From: Bacillota bacterium
Lineage (GTDB): Bacteria; Bacillota; Bacilli; Alicyclobacillales; Alicyclobacillaceae
DNA length: 43,834 nucleotides
Assembly (NCBI GenBank): GCA_021799255.1
Contig: JAJZAV010000003.1
Coordinates: 1-43,834, forward strand
Direction: 5' to 3'
Notes under the pieces: generated by a model
Databases searched by the model: none
Told to the model about the DNA's origin: nothing
What the model saw: only the letters and a program-made list of their open reading frames with translations
Shown here: positions 33,639 through 43,482 of the stretch, in pieces
Layout: every line of letters starts with the position of its first letter
How positions within the stretch are numbered: position 1 is the first letter of the stretch
Translations under genes and position numbers: made by a program

Positions 33639-33874
33639 GCCATGTTCCCTTCACGGTTCATGTTTAACTCCGTACACTACTCTTCCACGACGGTCTCTAT
33701 CGCATACACCAGCCCCGGCCCGACGTCCCGAAGGATCACCGCTACCGACGAACGCTCTCCAATCGGTTAGCGGGCACAACGTCGCAGAGTGGGGCGTACC
33801 CGGGCTGCCCGCTTAGGCAAGTACCGAGTCAGTTTCGGAACTGCAAAAATACAATGTCGATAAACAAACGAGTG

Positions 33875-33947
33875 GGTGATGGAGCTCACCTGAATGTCCG
33901 TTAGGATAATGGCTCCTGCGATTCTCCAAGATCGCAGGAGCCATTAT
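33875..33947 (+). ncRNA. Fluoride riboswitch (crcB motif) #1 with overlapping terminator
   Basis: GGTGATGGAGCTCACC ... ATAATGGCTCCTGCG; GGAG/CTCC pseudoknot; 17-bp perfect terminator arms ATAATGGCTCCTGCGAT (33906-33922)/ATCGCAGGAGCCATTAT (33931-33947) then U-rich. Confidence 0.86.
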
Positions 33948-33974
33948 CTCTTTATTCAATCAAGAAAATTCGAG

Positions 33975-34003
33975 TTGACAATGGGCGATGACTTCTTTAC
34001 GAT
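33975..34003 (+). promoter_or_regulatory. Candidate sigma-A promoter between riboswitch #1 and #2
   Basis: TTGACA (33975-33980), 17-nt spacer, TACGAT (33998-34003). Confidence 0.5.
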
Positions 34004-34019
34004 GAGGGTAACTGAAATG

Positions 34020-34090
34020 GGCGATGGAGTTCGCCGGAACTGCTTTCGAGCTGATGACTCCTACCAGTGATGACTGGTGGGAGTTTTGTT
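34020..34090 (+). ncRNA. Fluoride riboswitch (crcB motif) #2 with overlapping terminator
   Basis: GGCGATGGAGTTCGCCGGAACTGCTTTCGAGCTGATGACTCCTACC; terminator arms ACTCCTACCAGT/ACTGGTGGGAGT then TTTTGTTTTT. Confidence 0.92.
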
Positions 34091-34111
34091 TTTATGCGAG
34101 AGTCCCCAACA

Positions 34112-34197
34112 GGCGATGGAGCTCGCCGACAACTGCCTTTTTTCCCAAGGCTGATGGCTCCTACCGATTCGGTCCAAGAATCGGTAGGAGCTTTTTT
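34112..34197 (+). ncRNA. Fluoride riboswitch (crcB motif) #3 with overlapping terminator
   Basis: GGCGATGGAGCTCGCCGACAACTGCC...GGCTGATGGCTCCTACC; terminator arms GCTCCTACCGATTC/GAATCGGTAGGAGC then TTTTTT. Confidence 0.95.
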
Positions 34198-34223
34198 GCT
34201 TCTTCGTAAGGAGGCGGAAACCG

Positions 34224-35174
34224 ATGAGTGAAGCAAGATTGTTCTCTCTACAATTGCTTCAACTGGGCTTTGTTCTTGTGGTCTCCCCCCTCATTGCAGG
34301 CGTCCTCGCTCGGATGAAGGAGTTCGTTCAAGGCAAGGCAGGGCCAAGCATTTTTCAGCCCTACCGGGATCTTCGCAAGCTGTTCCAGAAAGAGCGGCTG
34401 ATTCCCGAGGGTTCTGGGCCCGTGTATCGCCTTGCTCCTTACCTGTATTTTTCAGCACCGCTCATCGTCACGCTGCTCATCCCGGTGCTCACGACGTTTC
34501 CCCTGTTTATGGCGTTTGCTGGAGACATGATGGCGGGCGGATTCATCCTTGGACTCGGAACGTACGTATTGCTCGCAGGGGCCATGGCAGGAGCTAGCCC
34601 GTACGGCGCCATCGGCAGCAGCCGCGTTCGATTTGTCTCCATGTCCGTCGAACCAGTACTCATTCTTGTCCTGTTTTGCGTGAGCTTCGTGGCGCACACC
34701 ACGATTCCGTACATCGTCAATCAAACCCTCTGGGGCCTTCGATGGTCCCCTATTCACCTGCTTTTGATTGCCTCGTTCTTCGCCATTCTATTGGCCGAGA
34801 CGGGACGCATCCCGGTAGATAATCCTTCGTCTCACCACGAATTTTCTATGATTGATCACAATCGTGTGTACGACTATTCCGGACCCGATTTAGCTCTACT
34901 CGAGTGGGGCGGGTGGATGAAGTACGTCGCCCTCGGGACCATCTTTTTGAACGTTATCGTTTCCCCCTACGGCTTGTCCCACAGCCCGGGCCTCATTTGG
35001 GTAGCCCTGGCCATCGTGGCGGTGTTCGTGAAGTTTGTACTGCTAGACGCCGCCATCGTTTGGGTGGAGTCGTCCTTCGGAAAACTGCGCCTGCTGCGGA
35101 TAGCAGAGTTTATGGCTTCGGCGGGCATGGCGGCCGGATTGGCCGTTCTCTTGGGAATTTTGCACGCTTGGTGA
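34224..35174 (+). CDS. Hyf/Hyc-type membrane subunit, NuoH-like (HyfC/HycD)
   Basis: GPSIFQPYRDLRKLFQKE, AETGRIPVDNPSSHHEFSMIDHNRVYDYSGPDLALLEWGGWMKY; AAGGAGG RBS. Confidence 0.92.
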   Translation: MSEARLFSLQLLQLGFVLVVSPLIAGVLARMKEFVQGKAGPSIFQPYRDLRKLFQKERLIPEGSGPVYRLAPYLYFSAPLIVTLLIPVLTTFPLFMAFAGDMMAGGFILGLGTYVLLAGAMAGASPYGAIGSSRVRFVSMSVEPVLILVLFCVSFVAHTTIPYIVNQTLWGLRWSPIHLLLIASFFAILLAETGRIPVDNPSSHHEFSMIDHNRVYDYSGPDLALLEWGGWMKYVALGTIFLNVIVSPYGLSHSPGLIWVALAIVAVFVKFVLLDAAIVWVESSFGKLRLLRIAEFMASAGMAAGLAVLLGILHAW

Positions 35175-35231: not shown

Positions 35232-35867
35232 ATGTGGGCTGAATCGCCTACCGTCTATGTTCTCGTTTTGTTGCTTGGCATCTGGATTGCCATGTCGCGA
35301 GAAACCCGAATTGCGGTGAATGGCTATGTCCTTCAAACGGCGTTGGTAGCCCTTTTGTACGGACTCACCGCGTTCCAAACCAGGGACTCGATGGAATATG
35401 TGGTTCTATTCGGGCTTGTCGTGCTTCGCCTTGGCCTCATCCCATGGCTATTACGTCGTTTTCTTCGAGGCGAACTTTATACAGCCCGACAAACCCGCGA
35501 GGTCTTTTCCCCGGCGTACGCCTTAGCGTTGCATATCATCCTTGCCGTCGTCGGCATTGCAGTCGGACAGAGCGCGCAACCGGGAACGCTCGGACTGGAT
35601 TTCGGAATGACCATCGCGGTTCTCCTCGTCGGTTTGGCGACCGTGACCATCGCGCATCATGCTCCCAAGCAGGTCATGGGAATCTTGGCTGCGGATAACG
35701 GGATCGATCTCGCTGTCGTCCTCACCTTGCGCCGCTTCACCGCGGTCGCGGACTACGCCATCTTTGTCGACGTCACGGTGGCGGCGCTTTGTCTCACCCT
35801 GATGGTGCTTCGACTCTTCGCGTACGGTTCTCAGCACGCCCATCATTTCAACGACCTGAAGGGGTGA
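35232..35867 (+). CDS. Hyf-type membrane subunit, HyfE/NuoK-like
   Basis: About 211 aa polytopic protein, position and length as HyfE; ATG at 35232 after GAGGGAGGAA. Confidence 0.85.
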   Translation: MWAESPTVYVLVLLLGIWIAMSRETRIAVNGYVLQTALVALLYGLTAFQTRDSMEYVVLFGLVVLRLGLIPWLLRRFLRGELYTARQTREVFSPAYALALHIILAVVGIAVGQSAQPGTLGLDFGMTIAVLLVGLATVTIAHHAPKQVMGILAADNGIDLAVVLTLRRFTAVADYAIFVDVTVAALCLTLMVLRLFAYGSQHAHHFNDLKG

Positions 35868-35874
35868 TTGGTGC

Positions 35875-37314
35875 ATGTGGACTTATATTTTGCTTTGCAT
35901 TCCTCTCGTTGGAATCTTGGTCACTTGGCTGAGTTCTGCGTCCATCCGTCGGTGGGTGCCGGTTGTGACGACAGGGCTGAACCTCGTCGTTGCCGCATTT
36001 GACGGGTTCTTGCCCAAGAGTTCTGTCCCTTTCAGAGGCGTGTTCCCCCATCTCGACACGCTCTCGCTGGTGGTCACGGGCATTACCCTCGTGGTCGGTT
36101 TCACGGCCGCTCTGTATTCCGCAGGCTACGTGCCGAGGGACCACCCGTCCGTGCCTGGAACGCAACCTGCTTCCGAACGCAGATATTTCAGTCTGTTTTT
36201 GGCATTCTACCTGACCATGTTGGCCGCTCCACTCGTGGAAAACGTCGTCCTCACGTGGGTGATGGTGGACGCCACCGCACTCGCCTCGGTGTTTCTGGTG
36301 GACTTCCACCATACAAGGAAGACGGCGGAGGCCTCATGGAAATACATCATCATCATGGAAGTCGGAGGGCTGGCCGCCCTGTTTGGAACCGTCGTTCTCT
36401 TGCTCGGCGAACCCGCGGCCCTTCACGATTTGACGTGGACGGGTCTCACGCACGTCGCGTCCACCATTTCACCGAAATTGTCGTCCATCGCCTTCGTGCT
36501 CGTTCTCGTCGGATATGGCACCAAGGCGGGGCTCGTGCCTTTTAACTCGTGGTTGCCTGACGCACACAGCCAGGCACCCTCGCCAGTTAGCGCCATGCTG
36601 AGCGCCATCAAACTCAATACCGCGATGTATGCCATCGTGCGCGTATTGCACATTTTGCAAGCGGGTCACGAAGGAGCATTTGCCAACCACGCGCTTGCGG
36701 TGTTCGGGTTTCTCACAGTCATCGTGAGCACGTTGATGACGACCGTGCAGCGCGATGTGAAACGGTTGTTGGCGTATTCGAGTTCCGAGAACCTGGGCCT
36801 CATTGCCGTAGGGTTCTCACTTGGCCCCATCGGCGCTCTCGGAGCCTACTTGCAAATGGTGAACCACTCGGTGGTCAAGTCGATGCTTTTCTACCAGTCG
36901 GGCGAGCTTCTGCTGGCATCCGGAACCACGGAGATGGCCCAAATGCGGGGCATGATCCGCCGGATCCCCTGGCTCGGAGTCACGCTCTTGTTCGGAATGC
37001 TCGCCATTGCGGGTGCACCGCCCTTCGGGCTCTTCATCAGCGAGTTCACCATCATCTTCGCGTTGGTGCACGAAGCTTCTCCGTGGCTCGCGGCCCTCAT
37101 CACCCTGATGCTCGTTATCCTGTTTGCCAATTTTCTCACGTACGCCATGAGGATCAGCCTTGGCACGCCTTCCCATCCGCTCGCTACGGACGGCAGCAAC
37201 TATCGCCCGAGGTGGACGACGTGGGTGCCGATGTTCAGTCACACTGGGGTGTCATTGGCGCTTGGCACCGTTTTACCTTACCTGTTGGTTCTTTCCCGAT
37301 TTGTGCGAATCTGA
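35875..37314 (+). CDS. Proton-translocating antiporter-like subunit, HyfF/NuoN-M-like
   Basis: YGTKAGLVPFNSWLPDAHSQAPSPVSAMLSAIKLNTAMYAIVR, DVKRLLAYSSSENLGLIAVG. Confidence 0.93.
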   Translation: MWTYILLCIPLVGILVTWLSSASIRRWVPVVTTGLNLVVAAFDGFLPKSSVPFRGVFPHLDTLSLVVTGITLVVGFTAALYSAGYVPRDHPSVPGTQPASERRYFSLFLAFYLTMLAAPLVENVVLTWVMVDATALASVFLVDFHHTRKTAEASWKYIIIMEVGGLAALFGTVVLLLGEPAALHDLTWTGLTHVASTISPKLSSIAFVLVLVGYGTKAGLVPFNSWLPDAHSQAPSPVSAMLSAIKLNTAMYAIVRVLHILQAGHEGAFANHALAVFGFLTVIVSTLMTTVQRDVKRLLAYSSSENLGLIAVGFSLGPIGALGAYLQMVNHSVVKSMLFYQSGELLLASGTTEMAQMRGMIRRIPWLGVTLLFGMLAIAGAPPFGLFISEFTIIFALVHEASPWLAALITLMLVILFANFLTYAMRISLGTPSHPLATDGSNYRPRWTTWVPMFSHTGVSLALGTVLPYLLVLSRFVRI

Positions 37315-37332: not shown

Positions 37333-38841
37333 TTGAAAGTACTGACCGCGCAAGGTTCGAATCTAAAACACGTCGAACGGCAACACCATCGCATCGGTGA
37401 TCTCGTGCACGCCGTGGTTCATTTCGCATCAGAAGAATCGGCGCAATTACTTTACTTCGGGTGGATCCCCAAAACGGGTGGATGGTCTAGACTCCTGGCC
37501 GTGATTGGTCGCCCGAAACACGCGCTGATTGAGTGGCACCACGCGGCCCCAACGTTCGGCCAAACAGCGTACCCCTCGCTCTCCGCGCGTTGGCCCGCGG
37601 CTTTGTGGTTAGAACGCGAAATGTGGGAGTTGACGAAGGTACTCCCGGTGGGCCATCCGGACCTGCGGGCCATTCTGCATCCCGAGAATCAAGAAGAGCG
37701 GATTGTGGTGCATGGAGACGAGGTTTTTCAATTGCCTCTAGGCCCTGTGCGATCCGATGTCGTCGAATCGATGTTCATGCGATTTGACACGCAGGGCGAG
37801 CAAATCGTGCACATGCAGCCTGAACTCTTTTACAAGCACCGGGACATCGAACGACTCGCGGTTGGACTCCTATATCCGGACGGGCGATTCCTGGCGGAGC
37901 GCGTTGCTGGGACTTCCACGATTGCCCACGCGACGGCCTACGCTCGCGCCATAGAGCATGCCTTAGGACATGTCGTTCACCCCAAGGTGGAGCAGGAACG
38001 CATCGTGTTTGGGGAATTGGAACGTCTCTACAATCATGCGCACGACATGGCCCAGATGGCGAGCGCCGCCGGAATGACCGTAGCGCAGGCGCAACTCTCC
38101 CGCGTTAAGGAGGAGTGCCTGCGCGTGAACGGCGATCTCTGCGGGTCTCGGTATCTGCGCAACGCAGTGCTTCCATACAAGGGGTCGGACGTCGAATGGG
38201 CGCAAGTCGTGTCCACCGTCATACGGAGGCTGCGAGACATTAATGGAAGGTTTACACAGTGCCTGGACCTGTTGCGAAGAACGCCGACGTTTGTGGACCG
38301 ATTCGTGGGGGCGGGCATCGTGAAGCAAGAATGGGCACGCGCCTACGGGACGGTAGGACCCGTTGCTCGCGCTTGTGGGCAGCCCGTCGACGTGCGGGAG
38401 GATTATTTGCGGGATCGGTACGAACAGCAGGCGTATCGTGTGGTTGTCGACGAAGCGGGCACCGGTGACGGGTGGGCCCGATTTGTCGTACGCGCGGGGG
38501 AATGGGAAATATCGCAGAGGGTTCTTACCAAGGGTCTCCAACTGCTCGCGAACGGGGACTTCATGGAGGCGGGCAGTTTGGCAGGAACTCAAGATGACTC
38601 CAAGAACGACGGTTTCTCGCTTGAACGCACCGGCATCGGTCTTTCTGAATCTCCGCGAGGTCGCGTGTGCCACGTGGTTCAATTGGATCCGGATGGACGG
38701 CTGGCCTTTTGGGGAATCCGGGCCGCGTCGGCGTGGAACTGGCCTGTGTTGGGCCTTGCGGTTGCGAACGGCAACATCCAACAGGATTTCCCGCCCATTG
38801 AGGCGAGCTTTGGATTGTCCTGCGCAGGCGTGGATAGGTAA
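37333..38841 (+). CDS. HyfG/HycE-like large subunit (NuoCD fusion) lacking most [NiFe] ligands
   Basis: FYKHRDIERLAVG...AERVAGTSTIAHATAYARAIEHALG aligns by eye with the HycE L1 region; C-terminus EASFGLSCAGVDR in place of DPCxxC. Confidence 0.85.
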   Translation: MKVLTAQGSNLKHVERQHHRIGDLVHAVVHFASEESAQLLYFGWIPKTGGWSRLLAVIGRPKHALIEWHHAAPTFGQTAYPSLSARWPAALWLEREMWELTKVLPVGHPDLRAILHPENQEERIVVHGDEVFQLPLGPVRSDVVESMFMRFDTQGEQIVHMQPELFYKHRDIERLAVGLLYPDGRFLAERVAGTSTIAHATAYARAIEHALGHVVHPKVEQERIVFGELERLYNHAHDMAQMASAAGMTVAQAQLSRVKEECLRVNGDLCGSRYLRNAVLPYKGSDVEWAQVVSTVIRRLRDINGRFTQCLDLLRRTPTFVDRFVGAGIVKQEWARAYGTVGPVARACGQPVDVREDYLRDRYEQQAYRVVVDEAGTGDGWARFVVRAGEWEISQRVLTKGLQLLANGDFMEAGSLAGTQDDSKNDGFSLERTGIGLSESPRGRVCHVVQLDPDGRLAFWGIRAASAWNWPVLGLAVANGNIQQDFPPIEASFGLSCAGVDR

Positions 38842-38853
38842 GGAGGGAAGGAC

Positions 38854-39252
38854 ATGTTCGCTAGCTGGCTGCGATTCGGGCTCACAAGTGGTCGCGTGAC
38901 GACGAGCTATCCAAAGAATAGGGAGGTTCTGCTGAGGGAGCACTCATCCTGGCATACGGTGCCGCGCCTCGACGCAACGGCAGCGCGCAAGCCGACGCCA
39001 ACCCTCCAAGATGTGAAAGCATGGGCGATGCGGTGTCCAACCTCGGCGCTGTTCGTATGGAGCGACGAGTCGGGATGGGGAATCTCTCTTGATGAGGGCG
39101 CGTGCATCGGCTGCAATCGCTGCGTGGTGCCGAACGTGCAGAGGGTGACGGAGTGGGGAGCAGACGTGGATCTCTTTGCCCTGGATAGGCTTGCACTCGT
39201 GGACAGCGTTCGGCTACAAGGAGGGGACTTTCGCGATGGACAACAAAAGTGA
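38854..39252 (+). CDS. Reduced HyfH/NuoI-like ferredoxin subunit
   Basis: MRCPTSAL...GACIGCNRCV; exactly four cysteines; position between large and small subunit genes. Confidence 0.75.
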   Translation: MFASWLRFGLTSGRVTTSYPKNREVLLREHSSWHTVPRLDATAARKPTPTLQDVKAWAMRCPTSALFVWSDESGWGISLDEGACIGCNRCVVPNVQRVTEWGADVDLFALDRLALVDSVRLQGGDFRDGQQK

Positions 39253-39718
39253 CTGGAACGAGTTGGACGCCGAGAAGCAGGCGGCTTCCCGGTTACGTAG
39301 AATCTTCGGAAAGTCCCTCCATGTGCGGCACATCGACGTGGGCTCCTGCAATGCATGTGAATCTGAGGTTTTGGCGTTGTCCAACCCGTACTACAACTTT
39401 CACCGCCTTGGCCTGTTCTTTACGGCTTCGCCTCGGCAGGCGGATGTGTTGCTTGTGACGGGGGCGATGACGCCCACCATGAAACCCATCCTTATGGAAA
39501 CGTACGAGGCGATGCCCAAGCCCCGATTGGTCGTTGCCGCGGGGGTATGCGCCATCCACGGAGGGGTGTTTGCCAACAGCCGGCAATTCGCCGGCCCCGT
39601 GGAATCCGTAATTCCAGTCGACGCGTTCATCCCAGGGTGCCCTCCGACTCCGTACGCGTTGATAAACGGTATCCTTGCGGCCGTAAATGGGCGCGAAGGA
39701 GTGACGCGAGATGCGTGA
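39236..39718 (+). CDS. HyfI/HycG/NuoB-like small subunit
   Basis: DVGSCNACESEVLAL, VVAAGVCAIHGGVF, FIPGCPPTPYALING; ATG at 39236 with AAGGAGGGG RBS. Confidence 0.93.
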   Translation: MDNKSDWNELDAEKQAASRLRRIFGKSLHVRHIDVGSCNACESEVLALSNPYYNFHRLGLFFTASPRQADVLLVTGAMTPTMKPILMETYEAMPKPRLVVAAGVCAIHGGVFANSRQFAGPVESVIPVDAFIPGCPPTPYALINGILAAVNGREGVTRDA

Positions 39719-41816
39719 CTTTTATTGGATCTCGGTTGCCTGGTTCTTGATCCCGCTCGCTTTGTTTCCGTGGTTCCGCCGAGAACGGGCCCTTCGGCCC
39801 CTTCGCTGGGCGGCTCTCGCCATCGGATCTCTTCTTCAAACGGCGCTGGGAATATGGGCACTTTCAGATTCCTCCCGCCTCGTTGTCGCCAAGTTCCCCA
39901 GCGTCCCGTTCTTCGGAACTTGGCTGTTTCGGATGGATCCTTTGACGTCGCTCTTGTTTGCTCTGCTCGGACTTATCGGCCTCGCGTCTAGCATTTATGC
40001 GATTGGATTGAGTCGGAACCGAGCGCTCGGCACCGGATGGATGAGCGCAAGTGCCGTGGCGCTGCAGTTCATGTTCACCAGTTTCTTGCTCACTTCGCAA
40101 GACGCCGTTGCACTCTTAGTGGCGTGGGAAGGCATGAGCCTTTGTGCCTACGCCTTTGTGGCAATCAATCACGGGTTGATACGCGTGAGGCGGGCCGCGT
40201 TCACGACGCTCGTGGCGAGTGAGATTGGCTTTCTGGCACTCGTGATTGCCGTCGTCATGGCGGCACCGGTGAGCGGAGGATTCACGTTTGCACAGCTCCA
40301 CGCCTCGCTCGTCCATCATCCCGAATCGTTGCGCTGTGTCGTGCTAGTGCTGGGCCTCGTCGGCTTCGGGGTGAAAAGCGGCATTTTGCCGATGCAGATG
40401 TGGATGCCCGGAGCGTACGACGCGGCGCCAGCTCACATGAGTGCCATTCTCGCGGGTGGGCTTCTCAACCTAGGGATATTCGGTATCCTCCGGACCCTCG
40501 AATGGGTCGGCGCACTTCCTTCACCCTGGGGCGTTGCGCTGGTGTGTGTGGGGGCGTTGGCCGTGTTTTTGGGGTCGCTGTACGCGGTGATGGAGCGACG
40601 GCTTGGCCGGTTGCTCGCTTACAGCAGCATCGAGAACGTTGGGTTTATGATCATCGGCATAGGCCTATCCATCGCCTTTCGTGCCACTGGGGCGGCAGCT
40701 TTTGCCTCGGTGGCGCTCATGGCCATGTTGGCGCAAATGATCTCCCACGCACTGGCCAAGGCGCTTTGCTTCTTGGCAACGGGTGAGGTTGAACGCCGCA
40801 CAAAGAAGGCGGATCTCTCCGCTTTGGGAGGGTTGTACCGAGACATGCCCGTGGCCGCGATCACGCTGTTGGTGGGTTCCTTAACCTTGGCCGCGGTTGC
40901 CCCGTTCAGTGGATTTACGGCCGAATGGTTGACCCTTCAGTCCATGCTGCAGGTCTACCGCACCCTGACGCCCGTTGAGCAGATGGTCGTGATTGGCGCG
41001 GGCGCTCTGACGGCCATCGGATCTGCGCTAGCTTTCACCGCCTTCCTTCGATTGTTCGTGTTTCTATTCACGGGGAAGCCCCGCAGGGCAGCGGTGACAT
41101 TGCGGGTGCGCCAGAATACGAGCGGCAAGCTCACAAACCTCGCCATCATAGGCCTGGGAAGTGTGTCCGCGCTGTACGGATTTGTGCCGACCGCCGTCTT
41201 CAACTGGATTGGCAAGGTCGTTGCGGAGATAGTGCCATCGACAAATGCAATTTCACAAACCAACCCGGATGTGTTTGGCCGTCCCGCGGCATTTTCGTCG
41301 ACGGTCGCCCTGGGAGGGGACCTGTTTTCTTTTGCGCCCGTGCGCAGTTTCATCGTTCAACCCGCCGCAGGAGTGAGCAGCATCGCTCCGACATACCTCA
41401 TGGGGTGGTTTCTCCTGTTCTCAGTTCTCGCCTTCGGACTGAGCAAGGGACTTCGGCGCAGCCGTTTCGGGTCTCGAACCGTCCCCTCGTGGGTGGGCGG
41501 GCGCTCCCTGGATGTTTCGGAGACCCAGTACAATGCACCTGGATACTCGAATGTTTACCGAATGTTTTTCCGTTCATTGCTCCGCTTTCGCGTCAGCACC
41601 GCGGTGATGGAAGGGGCGCCCGATGTGCCCACGGAGGTGTCTGTAAACGTGCGAGCAACCAAATGGCTGTACAGCGCAATTTACCGCAGCTGGGTCAAGA
41701 GGGTGCGCAAGCGCCTGGACGGGGTTCGGCACATCCAACACGGGTTGCTGTGGGGGTATTTGTCCGCCATGGTCCTCACGCTCGTCCTTTTACTGCTCTT
41801 TGCGACGTGGAAATGA
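39711..41816 (+). CDS. Antiporter-like membrane subunit, HyfB/HycC/NuoL-like
   Basis: LVAWEGMSLCAYAFVA, GFGVKSGILPMQMWMPGAYDAAPAHMSAILAGGLLNLGI, RRLGRLLAYSSIENVGFMIIGIG. Confidence 0.94.
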   Translation: MRDFYWISVAWFLIPLALFPWFRRERALRPLRWAALAIGSLLQTALGIWALSDSSRLVVAKFPSVPFFGTWLFRMDPLTSLLFALLGLIGLASSIYAIGLSRNRALGTGWMSASAVALQFMFTSFLLTSQDAVALLVAWEGMSLCAYAFVAINHGLIRVRRAAFTTLVASEIGFLALVIAVVMAAPVSGGFTFAQLHASLVHHPESLRCVVLVLGLVGFGVKSGILPMQMWMPGAYDAAPAHMSAILAGGLLNLGIFGILRTLEWVGALPSPWGVALVCVGALAVFLGSLYAVMERRLGRLLAYSSIENVGFMIIGIGLSIAFRATGAAAFASVALMAMLAQMISHALAKALCFLATGEVERRTKKADLSALGGLYRDMPVAAITLLVGSLTLAAVAPFSGFTAEWLTLQSMLQVYRTLTPVEQMVVIGAGALTAIGSALAFTAFLRLFVFLFTGKPRRAAVTLRVRQNTSGKLTNLAIIGLGSVSALYGFVPTAVFNWIGKVVAEIVPSTNAISQTNPDVFGRPAAFSSTVALGGDLFSFAPVRSFIVQPAAGVSSIAPTYLMGWFLLFSVLAFGLSKGLRRSRFGSRTVPSWVGGRSLDVSETQYNAPGYSNVYRMFFRSLLRFRVSTAVMEGAPDVPTEVSVNVRATKWLYSAIYRSWVKRVRKRLDGVRHIQHGLLWGYLSAMVLTLVLLLLFATWK

Positions 41817-41870
41817 CGCAGAGGGGCACGGCCGTGGAAATGACGCCGTGTCAAATTGAGGCAGCAAGCG

Positions 41871-42269
41871 TCATTGTCCCAGTTCTTCGTTCGTATTCCA
41901 AATCCGGCCGCTGACGGTGGACACAAGGAGATCCCCCACGTACGCGAGGACGGGTCCCCCAATCATACTCGCTGCTATGTATAAATAGCTCGCCAACGGA
42001 CTATGCCGAAATAACGTGTCGGTGTTGAGGCAGAATGTCGAGAACGTCGTGTAGGCCCCAATAAGGCCGACCCCAAAGCCTACACGAAGCCAGTCAGGAA
42101 TGTCGCGGAAGGCAGCAATCCCATAGAACACTCCGAGGACGAAAGATCCGCTTAAATTGATCAGCAACGTAGCGTTTGGGAACGCTCCATCGGCTGGGAT
42201 GATATGCGCTAGTAAATATCGGAGAAAGCCGCCGATGGCCCCCCCAATGAGAAGCGCAACGTATTTCAT
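41871..42269 (-). CDS. crcB: Fluoride exporter CrcB/FluC
   Basis: MKYVALLIGGAIGGFLRYLLAHI, FPNATLLINLSGSFVLGVFYG, RVGFGVGLIGAYTTFSTFCLNT; start at 42269 with AAGGAAGGA RBS (ORF track start is further upstream). Confidence 0.95.
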   Translation of the reverse strand: MKYVALLIGGAIGGFLRYLLAHIIPADGAFPNATLLINLSGSFVLGVFYGIAAFRDIPDWLRVGFGVGLIGAYTTFSTFCLNTDTLFRHSPLASYLYIAASMIGGPVLAYVGDLLVSTVSGRIWNTNEELGQ

Positions 42270-42356
42270 TCTGATTCCTTCCTTCTGTCCGCCACGTGGC
42301 ACGTGGCGTGTGGCATGGGGTGGGTGCGATGTGCCATCGCTAGAAAAACAATAAAA

Positions 42357-42433
42357 CTCCTGTGACAATGACTAGATACGTCTCTCACAGGAGCCATCAA
42401 CCTCTTAGGTGGTTATCGGTGAGATCCATCACC
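42357..42433 (-). ncRNA. Fluoride riboswitch (crcB motif) #4 with terminator, upstream of crcB
   Basis: Minus strand GGTGATGGATCTCACCGATAACCACCTAAGAGGTTGATGGCTCCTGTGA; terminator arms CTCCTGTGA/TCACAGGAG then TTTTATTG. Confidence 0.92.
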
Positions 42434-42452
42434 CGTGTTTCTCAATGTGGGC

Positions 42453-42482
42453 ATTATACCCGAAGCGGTGCCCGGATGTCAT
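42453..42482 (-). promoter_or_regulatory. Candidate promoter of crcB riboswitch transcript
   Basis: Minus strand ATGACA (42482-42477), 18-nt spacer, TATAAT (42458-42453). Confidence 0.6.
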
Positions 42483-42585: not shown

Positions 42586-43482
42586 CTAAAACCACTTCTT
42601 CTTCTTGAAGTACCACCAAAACCCTGCGACCGAGAGGATGGACAGAATCCACACCAACGGGTATCCGTATCGCCAGTGATAGGCGGGGACGGCGACGTTC
42701 ACCCCATACCAGCCGACGATGAATGAGAGAGGCATGAAGAAGGTACTAACGATGGTGAGGGTCTTCATAATTGAGTTCATCCCATCGCTTTTCAGCGCCA
42801 TTTGTAGGTCTAACAGGCCGCCGAGGGCGTCCCGAAAGCTGTCGAGGGCGTCGAGATGCGATTAATGTGATCGAATAAATCCATGAAATAAGCGTTGTCC
42901 GCCTCAGTGGTATACGGGAACGTCGAGTGCATCAACGACTCCATCACGTCGATTTTGTCTTCCAGAAAATCGATGAAGTCGAGGTAGTGGTGAACCGAGA
43001 AATCCAAAAACTCGTACAGGATGCGTCCGTGAGACTGCATCATGAGCGGGGTTTCCTTGAATTGGTGATGAAGGTCTTCGAGAAAGGGCATGGGTTCGGG
43101 CACCACGGCGATGACAAAGTTATGGCCCATCACCATAGACACCTCTATCAGGCTCCAGTCATCCTTGAGAAAGAAACGGGCAGTAGACGTGGTCCGAGTA
43201 CCTATCGATTTGAGTTCCGGTGCCAAAGCGCAGGCAGTCCTCAACGACCAGGGGGTGACAGTTGAAGATGTCTCCCACGACCTGTCGGACATCGGATGGT
43301 TCCGGATGGTACAGGTCAACAAACACGGTTTCATTTTGTGCGGCTTCTCGCACGGACTCCTGCCGGACCTCGTGACCGTCGCACACGAGCATAGAAAAGA
43401 CTCCCTTCGCTTCAGCATGCGTCTTCGCGCAGGCCTTCATATCTGCTTCGCTGGAAGCAGAGGCTATGCCGGGAAATGACAC
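42586..43482 (-). pseudogene. CorA-like Mg2+/divalent cation transporter, interrupted by two apparent frameshifts
   Basis: N-terminal part 43482-43159, middle 42810-43170 region, C-terminal FFMPLSFIVGWYGVNV plus last TM in 42801-42586; three different frames on one strand. Confidence 0.75.

Follow-up and report, generated by a model that had tools for sequence, protein, structure and literature searches.

A predicted fluoride-switched fluC unit facing a riboswitch-preceded, non-hydrogenase Ehr-type operon in an Alicyclobacillaceae genome

Introduction

A riboswitch names the stress that is answered by its target gene. Which stress response, then, is encoded where a fluoride channel gene with its own fluoride riboswitch converges on a hydrogenase-like (Hyf-like) operon, itself headed by fluoride riboswitches? 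We analyzed this arrangement in a stretch of 43,834 nucleotides (the window) from a Bacillota bacterium of the Alicyclobacillaceae (contig JAJZAV010000003.1, assembly GCA_021799255.1). The presence of the crcB motif ahead of “formate hydrogen lyase” (FHL) genes was noted in 2010 (Weinberg 2010, PMC2864571), and a 2024 review repeats the association, as one with a fermentative enzyme (PMC11139923). In the same review, Na+/H+ antiporters come next in frequency among fluoride riboswitch targets, and fluoride is tied, via HF, to acid load and pH homeostasis (PMC11139923). Overall, the locus is best explained, and likely so, by a fluoride-induced FluC unit which faces a fluoride-switched operon for a non-hydrogenase Ehr complex.

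The fluC unit

The fluC unit lies on the minus strand and consists of the following elements.

42477–42482, minus strand: -35 box ATGACA of the fluC promoter, by sequence match to the promoter pattern
42453–42458, minus strand: -10 box TATAAT of the fluC promoter, by sequence match to the promoter pattern
42381–42442, minus strand: fluoride riboswitch aptamer #4 (RF01734, 45.9 bits, E 1.1e-9)
42423–42427, minus strand: pseudoknot 5' strand of aptamer #4, GGAUC, with U at 42424 instead of a nearly invariant G
42390–42394, minus strand: pseudoknot 3' strand of aptamer #4, GCUCC, also part of the terminator 5' arm
42344–42395, minus strand: intrinsic terminator of the fluC unit, with an 11-bp stem base and a U-rich tail, overlapping aptamer #4
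42290–42308, minus strand: near-perfect 19-bp palindrome CGCCACGTGCCACGTGGCG between the terminator and the ribosome-binding site, from the sequence
42277–42284, minus strand: fluC ribosome-binding site AAGGAAGG, 7 nt ahead of the ATG, from the sequence
41871–42269, minus strand: fluC/crcB, a fluoride channel of 132 amino acids (PF02537, E 8e-23)
41817–41870, no strand: 54-bp gap separating the stop codons of the two convergent units, the Hyf-like operon ending at 41816

The preliminary description of this DNA had assigned to fluC a promoter, an aptamer and a terminator of its own, and had placed it about 55 bp from the Hyf-like operon. All of these elements were found in place, by RF01734, PF02537 and the fold of the terminator, and the spacing was close to the measured one. 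The promoter-like site ATGACA-18-TATAAT (42482–42453, minus strand) has 11 of 12 matches to the sigma-70-type pattern and is the only one within its 1 kb. Because 0.7 sites with at least 9/12 matches are expected by chance, the score alone is a weak argument, and the stronger one is the position, about 10 nt ahead of aptamer #4.

Aptamer #4 exceeds the RF01734 gathering score of 34 bits in the covariance-model match, and reaches 54.1 bits (E 2.7e-16) against our family model R1, in which aptamer #4 itself is included. For all four RF01734 aptamers of the window, a chance match is excluded. The terminator is formed by GGCUCCUGUGA and UCACAGGAGUU, followed by UUUUAUUGUUUUU (42395–42344), and the fold of this stretch beats 200 of 200 shuffles (z -3.3). 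The pseudoknot 3' strand sits inside the terminator 5' arm, which makes an expression platform of two mutually exclusive structures. FluC retains GGAIGGFLRY, NLSGSF and TTFSTF (signature motifs GGxxGxxxRY, NLxGSF and TTFSTF), and aligns to the solved Fluc structure 5a40 (E 1e-10). Homology, fold and architecture together make it very likely that this is a fluoride ON switch driving FluC.

Several further features surround the gene. The palindrome, of which no second copy was found in the window, is possibly an operator or a hairpin. No intrinsic terminator was found in the 54-bp gap. A CorA-like gene upstream of fluC (42586–43482, minus strand) is broken across several frames, either as a pseudogene or by sequence errors. 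No close plasmid donor of fluC was found, every plasmid match having less than 60% identity.

How special is such a unit? We surveyed 41 genomes of the family, 39 of which have a fluoride riboswitch, and read the surroundings of 134 riboswitches. As fluC follows 54 of the 134, the commonest arrangement in the family, the fluC unit alone is ordinary. Of 67 proteins scanned among the other targets, Na+/H+ exchangers make up 21, the next most frequent group, while TerC, sigma factors, enolase and MutS each turn up repeatedly.

The pseudoknot of aptamer #4

The loop of aptamer #4 had been described as GGAT in place of GGAG, and this difference is real, both by direct count and when 56 family aptamers are aligned. 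At the fourth pseudoknot pair, 55 of the 56 have G-C and only aptamer #4 has a broken pair (U.C), while the direct count gives one GGAT loop in the 134 family riboswitches. The other four of the five pseudoknot pairs are standard, with the fifth pair, C-G, intact, and the remaining helices and the conserved core are undamaged. That GGAT is unique to aptamer #4 holds for the family set, but is ruled out overall by a distant relative (L222), where the loop recurs in the riboswitch ahead of a NuoH gene. Because of this recurrence, aptamer #4 is not obviously dead.

Two alternatives bear on this base. One is a decayed switch, in which the pseudoknot, because of its U.C mismatch, no longer competes with the terminator, and fluC is left off or constantly leaking. 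A break that is confined to one aptamer of the family would fit decay, yet the intact fifth pair, helices and core, a good terminator and promoter, and the GGAT loop of L222 all argue against decay and make it unlikely. The other is a sequencing or assembly error, as could be suspected for a single base, in one sequence only, in a genome of 337 contigs and next to a CorA-like gene split over frames. With the same letter in L222, and the surrounding riboswitch, terminator and fluC intact, we consider an error very unlikely.

Reading aptamer #4 as a functional switch, the mismatch probably weakens the pseudoknot. Weaker competition with the terminator would then raise the threshold, with more fluoride needed to switch on fluC, a suggestion to which we give somewhat less than even weight. 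Its naturally occurring pseudoknot mismatch makes the fluC unit a ready test case for one base pair setting a riboswitch threshold.

Leader of the Hyf-like operon

The remaining three riboswitches precede the converging operon on the plus strand.

33866–33925, plus strand: fluoride riboswitch #1 (RF01734, 36.6 bits), terminator stem 33904–33949
33975–34003, plus strand: promoter-like site TTGACA-17-TACGAT between riboswitches #1 and #2, 10 of 12 matches
34011–34070, plus strand: fluoride riboswitch #2 (RF01734, 56.9 bits), terminator stem 34056–34085
34103–34170, plus strand: fluoride riboswitch #3 (RF01734, 56.8 bits), terminator stem 34156–34192

The four fluoride riboswitches that had been noted within 8.6 kb are thus all matched by RF01734. 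Because riboswitch #1 has its own terminator and is followed by a second promoter-like site, the leader reads as one plus two riboswitches rather than as three in series, with #2 and #3 as the apparent true tandem. The family survey yielded ten tandem riboswitch clusters, and three in a row (33866–34200) were seen in the window only.

Near-identical cassettes of a tandem riboswitch and a fluC pair, with a spacing of about 133–142 bp, were also observed in three genomes (L175, L137, L138 and L131; two copies in genome G020), and look mobile.

A Hyf-like complex lacking the nickel site

The Hyf-like operon comprises seven genes on the plus strand, with a NuoH-type gene first.

34224–35174, plus strand: NuoH/HycD-like membrane subunit (PF00146; best solved match FHL subunit 4, 7z0s)
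35232–35867, plus strand: HyfE-like membrane subunit (NF008556, below cut-off)
35875–37314, plus strand: HyfF-like antiporter-type subunit, channel lysines retained (PF00361)
37333–38841, plus strand: NuoCD/HycE-like large subunit, four Ni-binding cysteines lost (alignment to HycE, 7z0s)
38854–39252, plus strand: small ferredoxin-like subunit, one [4Fe-4S] motif left (CP ... CxxCxxC), from the sequence
39236–39718, plus strand: NuoB-like subunit, cluster cysteines C38, C41, C105 and C135 retained (PF01058)
39711–41816, plus strand: HyfB-like antiporter-type subunit (PF00361)

The large subunit has FHL subunit 5 (7z0s) as its best solved match, but the two Ni-binding CxxC motifs of a group 4 [NiFe] hydrogenase are absent from it. 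In the window protein and its aligned relatives, RVCGIC of HycE is replaced by RxxGTST, and DPCYSC by GLS(C/Y)AG, in which neither cysteine is kept. Because all four Ni ligands are replaced, the complex is assigned, by sequence, to the Ehr type (energy-converting hydrogenase-related complexes, known as such; PMC6349859), being neither hydrogenase 4 nor another hydrogenase. The name “Hyf-like” therefore stands as a resemblance, and falls as an identification with hydrogenase 4.

A true, fluoride-induced hydrogenase 4 or formate hydrogenlyase is what the name used in the literature (PMC2864571, PMC11139923) and the match to FHL subunit 5 would suggest. This is ruled out by the replaced Ni ligands, and by hypD, required for maturation of the Ni cofactor, which was not found in seven genomes carrying the complex (G020, G023, G033, G037, G038, G216 and G427); moreover, no formate dehydrogenase gene was seen within the operon. 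We give this reading practically no probability. The window's own genome does carry hypD, on another contig.

The lysines of the antiporter-type subunits are largely retained in the window complex and its relatives. Could the complex be an antiporter without redox chemistry, assembled from parts of complex I and exchanging cations (or F-) with H+? The Ni site is absent from every member aligned, the membrane subunits are similar to those of Mrp antiporters, and on a Mycobacterium branderi plasmid (L212, 8327–9121) the NuoB domain lacks all four Fe-S cysteines. Because of this last case the antiporter stays a live rival. However, all other riboswitch-linked members checked have intact NuoB cluster cysteines, and at least one cluster motif is retained in the small ferredoxin-like subunit, so we regard a redox-free antiporter as doubtful. 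An Ehr complex acting as a redox-driven pump is, in turn, a poor fit in M. branderi.

Other observations on the complex concern single loci. The NuoB-domain locus of M. branderi adjoins a convergent enolase gene and riboswitches, and HyfB of the Alicyclobacillus mengziensis Ehr operon (L042, 3802–7755) is split in two by a probable insertion of about 1.8 kb. No viral copies of the large subunit were found.

Fluoride riboswitches across NuoH-first operons

The link between fluoride riboswitches and this type of operon extends far beyond the window. Among loci chosen by protein similarity, and not by riboswitch, a fluoride riboswitch lies upstream in 17 of 17 NuoH-first operons with an intact 5' region, and in 0 of 11 HyfB-first relatives, in each of which the upstream region was present. 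The 17 operons cover Bacillota, Alpha- and Betaproteobacteria and Actinomycetota: seven are from the family of the window (the window, L042, L043, L045, L048, L049 and L184), four from a sister family (L064–L067), three from other Bacillota (L220–L222), and three from Rhodopila globiformis (L074), a Burkholderia multivorans plasmid (L213) and the M. branderi plasmid (L212), where a NUDIX gene lies between riboswitch and operon. Eleven of the riboswitches reach the Rfam cut-off, L065 is below it (28.1 bits), and those of L064, L066, L067, L221 and L222 were matched only by the model trained on family aptamers, the matches in L221 and L222 being weak (E 8.5e-5 and 0.002).

The NuoCD tree and the NuoH tree alike separate the riboswitch-linked operons from the rest by a branch with support of 100/99, M. 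branderi forming a long branch. By tree and gene order, the riboswitch-linked, NuoH-first operons form one clade, a distinct Ehr lineage.

In the sister family, we found elements that resemble the fluoride aptamer but diverge from it, the junction after P1 being shortened (L064 1903–1961, L066 3861–3919, L067 5901–5959 and L065 6028–6087), and in the first three the core GAUGG has become GUUGG. These elements are conserved, come with a terminator, lie ahead of the Ehr operon and are missed by Rfam; possibly, they are a variant with altered affinity or ligand. Among the HyfB-first relatives L050 (G030), L051 (G008) and L053 (G019), the large subunit of L050 retains both CxxC motifs, and hypD was not found in any of these three genomes.

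Extent of the regulon

Is the physical pairing of fluC with the Ehr operon what matters? The preliminary description saw a compact fluoride regulon in the two units and proposed that their synteny be compared in related genomes. Four riboswitches within 8.6 kb and a convergent gap of 54 bp would speak for a conserved, dedicated regulon, as would the ALC3 plasmid (Alicyclobacillus sp. ALC3), where an orphan NuoCD gene is found about 3 kb from crcB, both having a riboswitch. Yet among other loci extending past the operon end, no adjacent fluC was found at the Ehr operon in eight (L042, L043, L045, L048, L049, L065, L066 and L067), and the closest, in L064, lies 6.7 kb downstream. The same genome also has two fluoride riboswitches outside the window, ahead of an Na+/H+ exchanger on contig 242 and of a CrcB-like gene on contig 267, as well as four further CrcB genes. 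Because the adjacency is unconserved, and riboswitches and CrcB genes are found elsewhere in the genome, we reject a compact conserved regulon, and see only a small chance that the pairing itself is significant. Rather, FluC unit and Ehr operon would be coupled by a shared fluoride signal, not by adjacency.

The fluoride island on the ALC3 plasmid (L190, L191 and L218) has six riboswitches, and its genes include CrcB, the orphan NuoCD, a sigma factor, an MFS transporter and DUF190, among others.

Proposed mechanism and significance

HF enters cells as a weak acid, and the export of fluoride leaves the proton behind. In the mechanism that we propose, RNA polymerase would initiate about 10 nt ahead of aptamer #4. 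Without fluoride, the GCUCC strand would be pulled into the terminator hairpin and transcription would stop; with fluoride and Mg bound, the pseudoknot would keep this strand, and fluC would be transcribed. HF would diffuse in and dissociate, and FluC would let F- out, with H+ entry as the net effect. Given this net entry, the Ehr complex, with two antiporter-type subunits and NuoH, would move H+ or Na+, and so compensate for the acid load and keep up the gradient. For the role of the Ehr complex as an ion pump, we consider the case evenly balanced.

More broadly, and tentatively, we propose that one lineage, found across phyla, accounts for the “formate hydrogenlyase” targets of fluoride riboswitches, and that its members are complex I-like ion pumps, not hydrogenases, dedicated to HF stress. 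Together with FluC they would achieve net HF export, and at least one branch would have become redox-free. Should fluoride riboswitches prove strictly linked to one clade of Ni-less Ehr complexes, a testable function could be assigned to these orphan complexes, the listing of “formate hydrogenlyase” in the fluoride literature would need correction, and proton handling would be suggested as the other half of how acid-loving bacteria resist fluoride. The lasting interest of the locus is the fluoride-linked Ehr lineage beside fluC, rather than the fluC unit itself. A report joining fluoride to Ehr complexes was not found in the non-subscription literature searched, which does not prove its absence.

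Comparison with known systems

The fluC unit resembles the RF01734 (crcB motif) switches on crcB/fluC in its aptamer fold, in the pseudoknot shared with the terminator, and in its target gene. It differs from them in the U.C of the fourth pseudoknot pair, and in facing a second fluoride-controlled operon.

The Hyf-like operon matches the published cases of a crcB motif with “formate hydrogen lyase” genes, as a fluoride riboswitch stands ahead of Hyf/Hyc-like genes. Unlike what the FHL label implies, the Ni site is gone in the window and in every aligned riboswitch-linked relative, and these operons form one clade with its own gene order. As judged from their sequences, the loci examined do not support “formate hydrogenlyase” as a functional label.

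With the Ehr complexes (PMC6349859), the window complex shares group 4 hydrogenase-like subunits, the absence of the Ni ligands, and antiporter-like subunits. Whereas the other Ehr operons tested are HyfB-first and have no riboswitch, the lineage of the window is NuoH-first with a fluoride riboswitch upstream, and is further set apart from other Ehr operons by its neighbours in some relatives, for example enolase, pyrophosphatase, DUF190 and CrcB.
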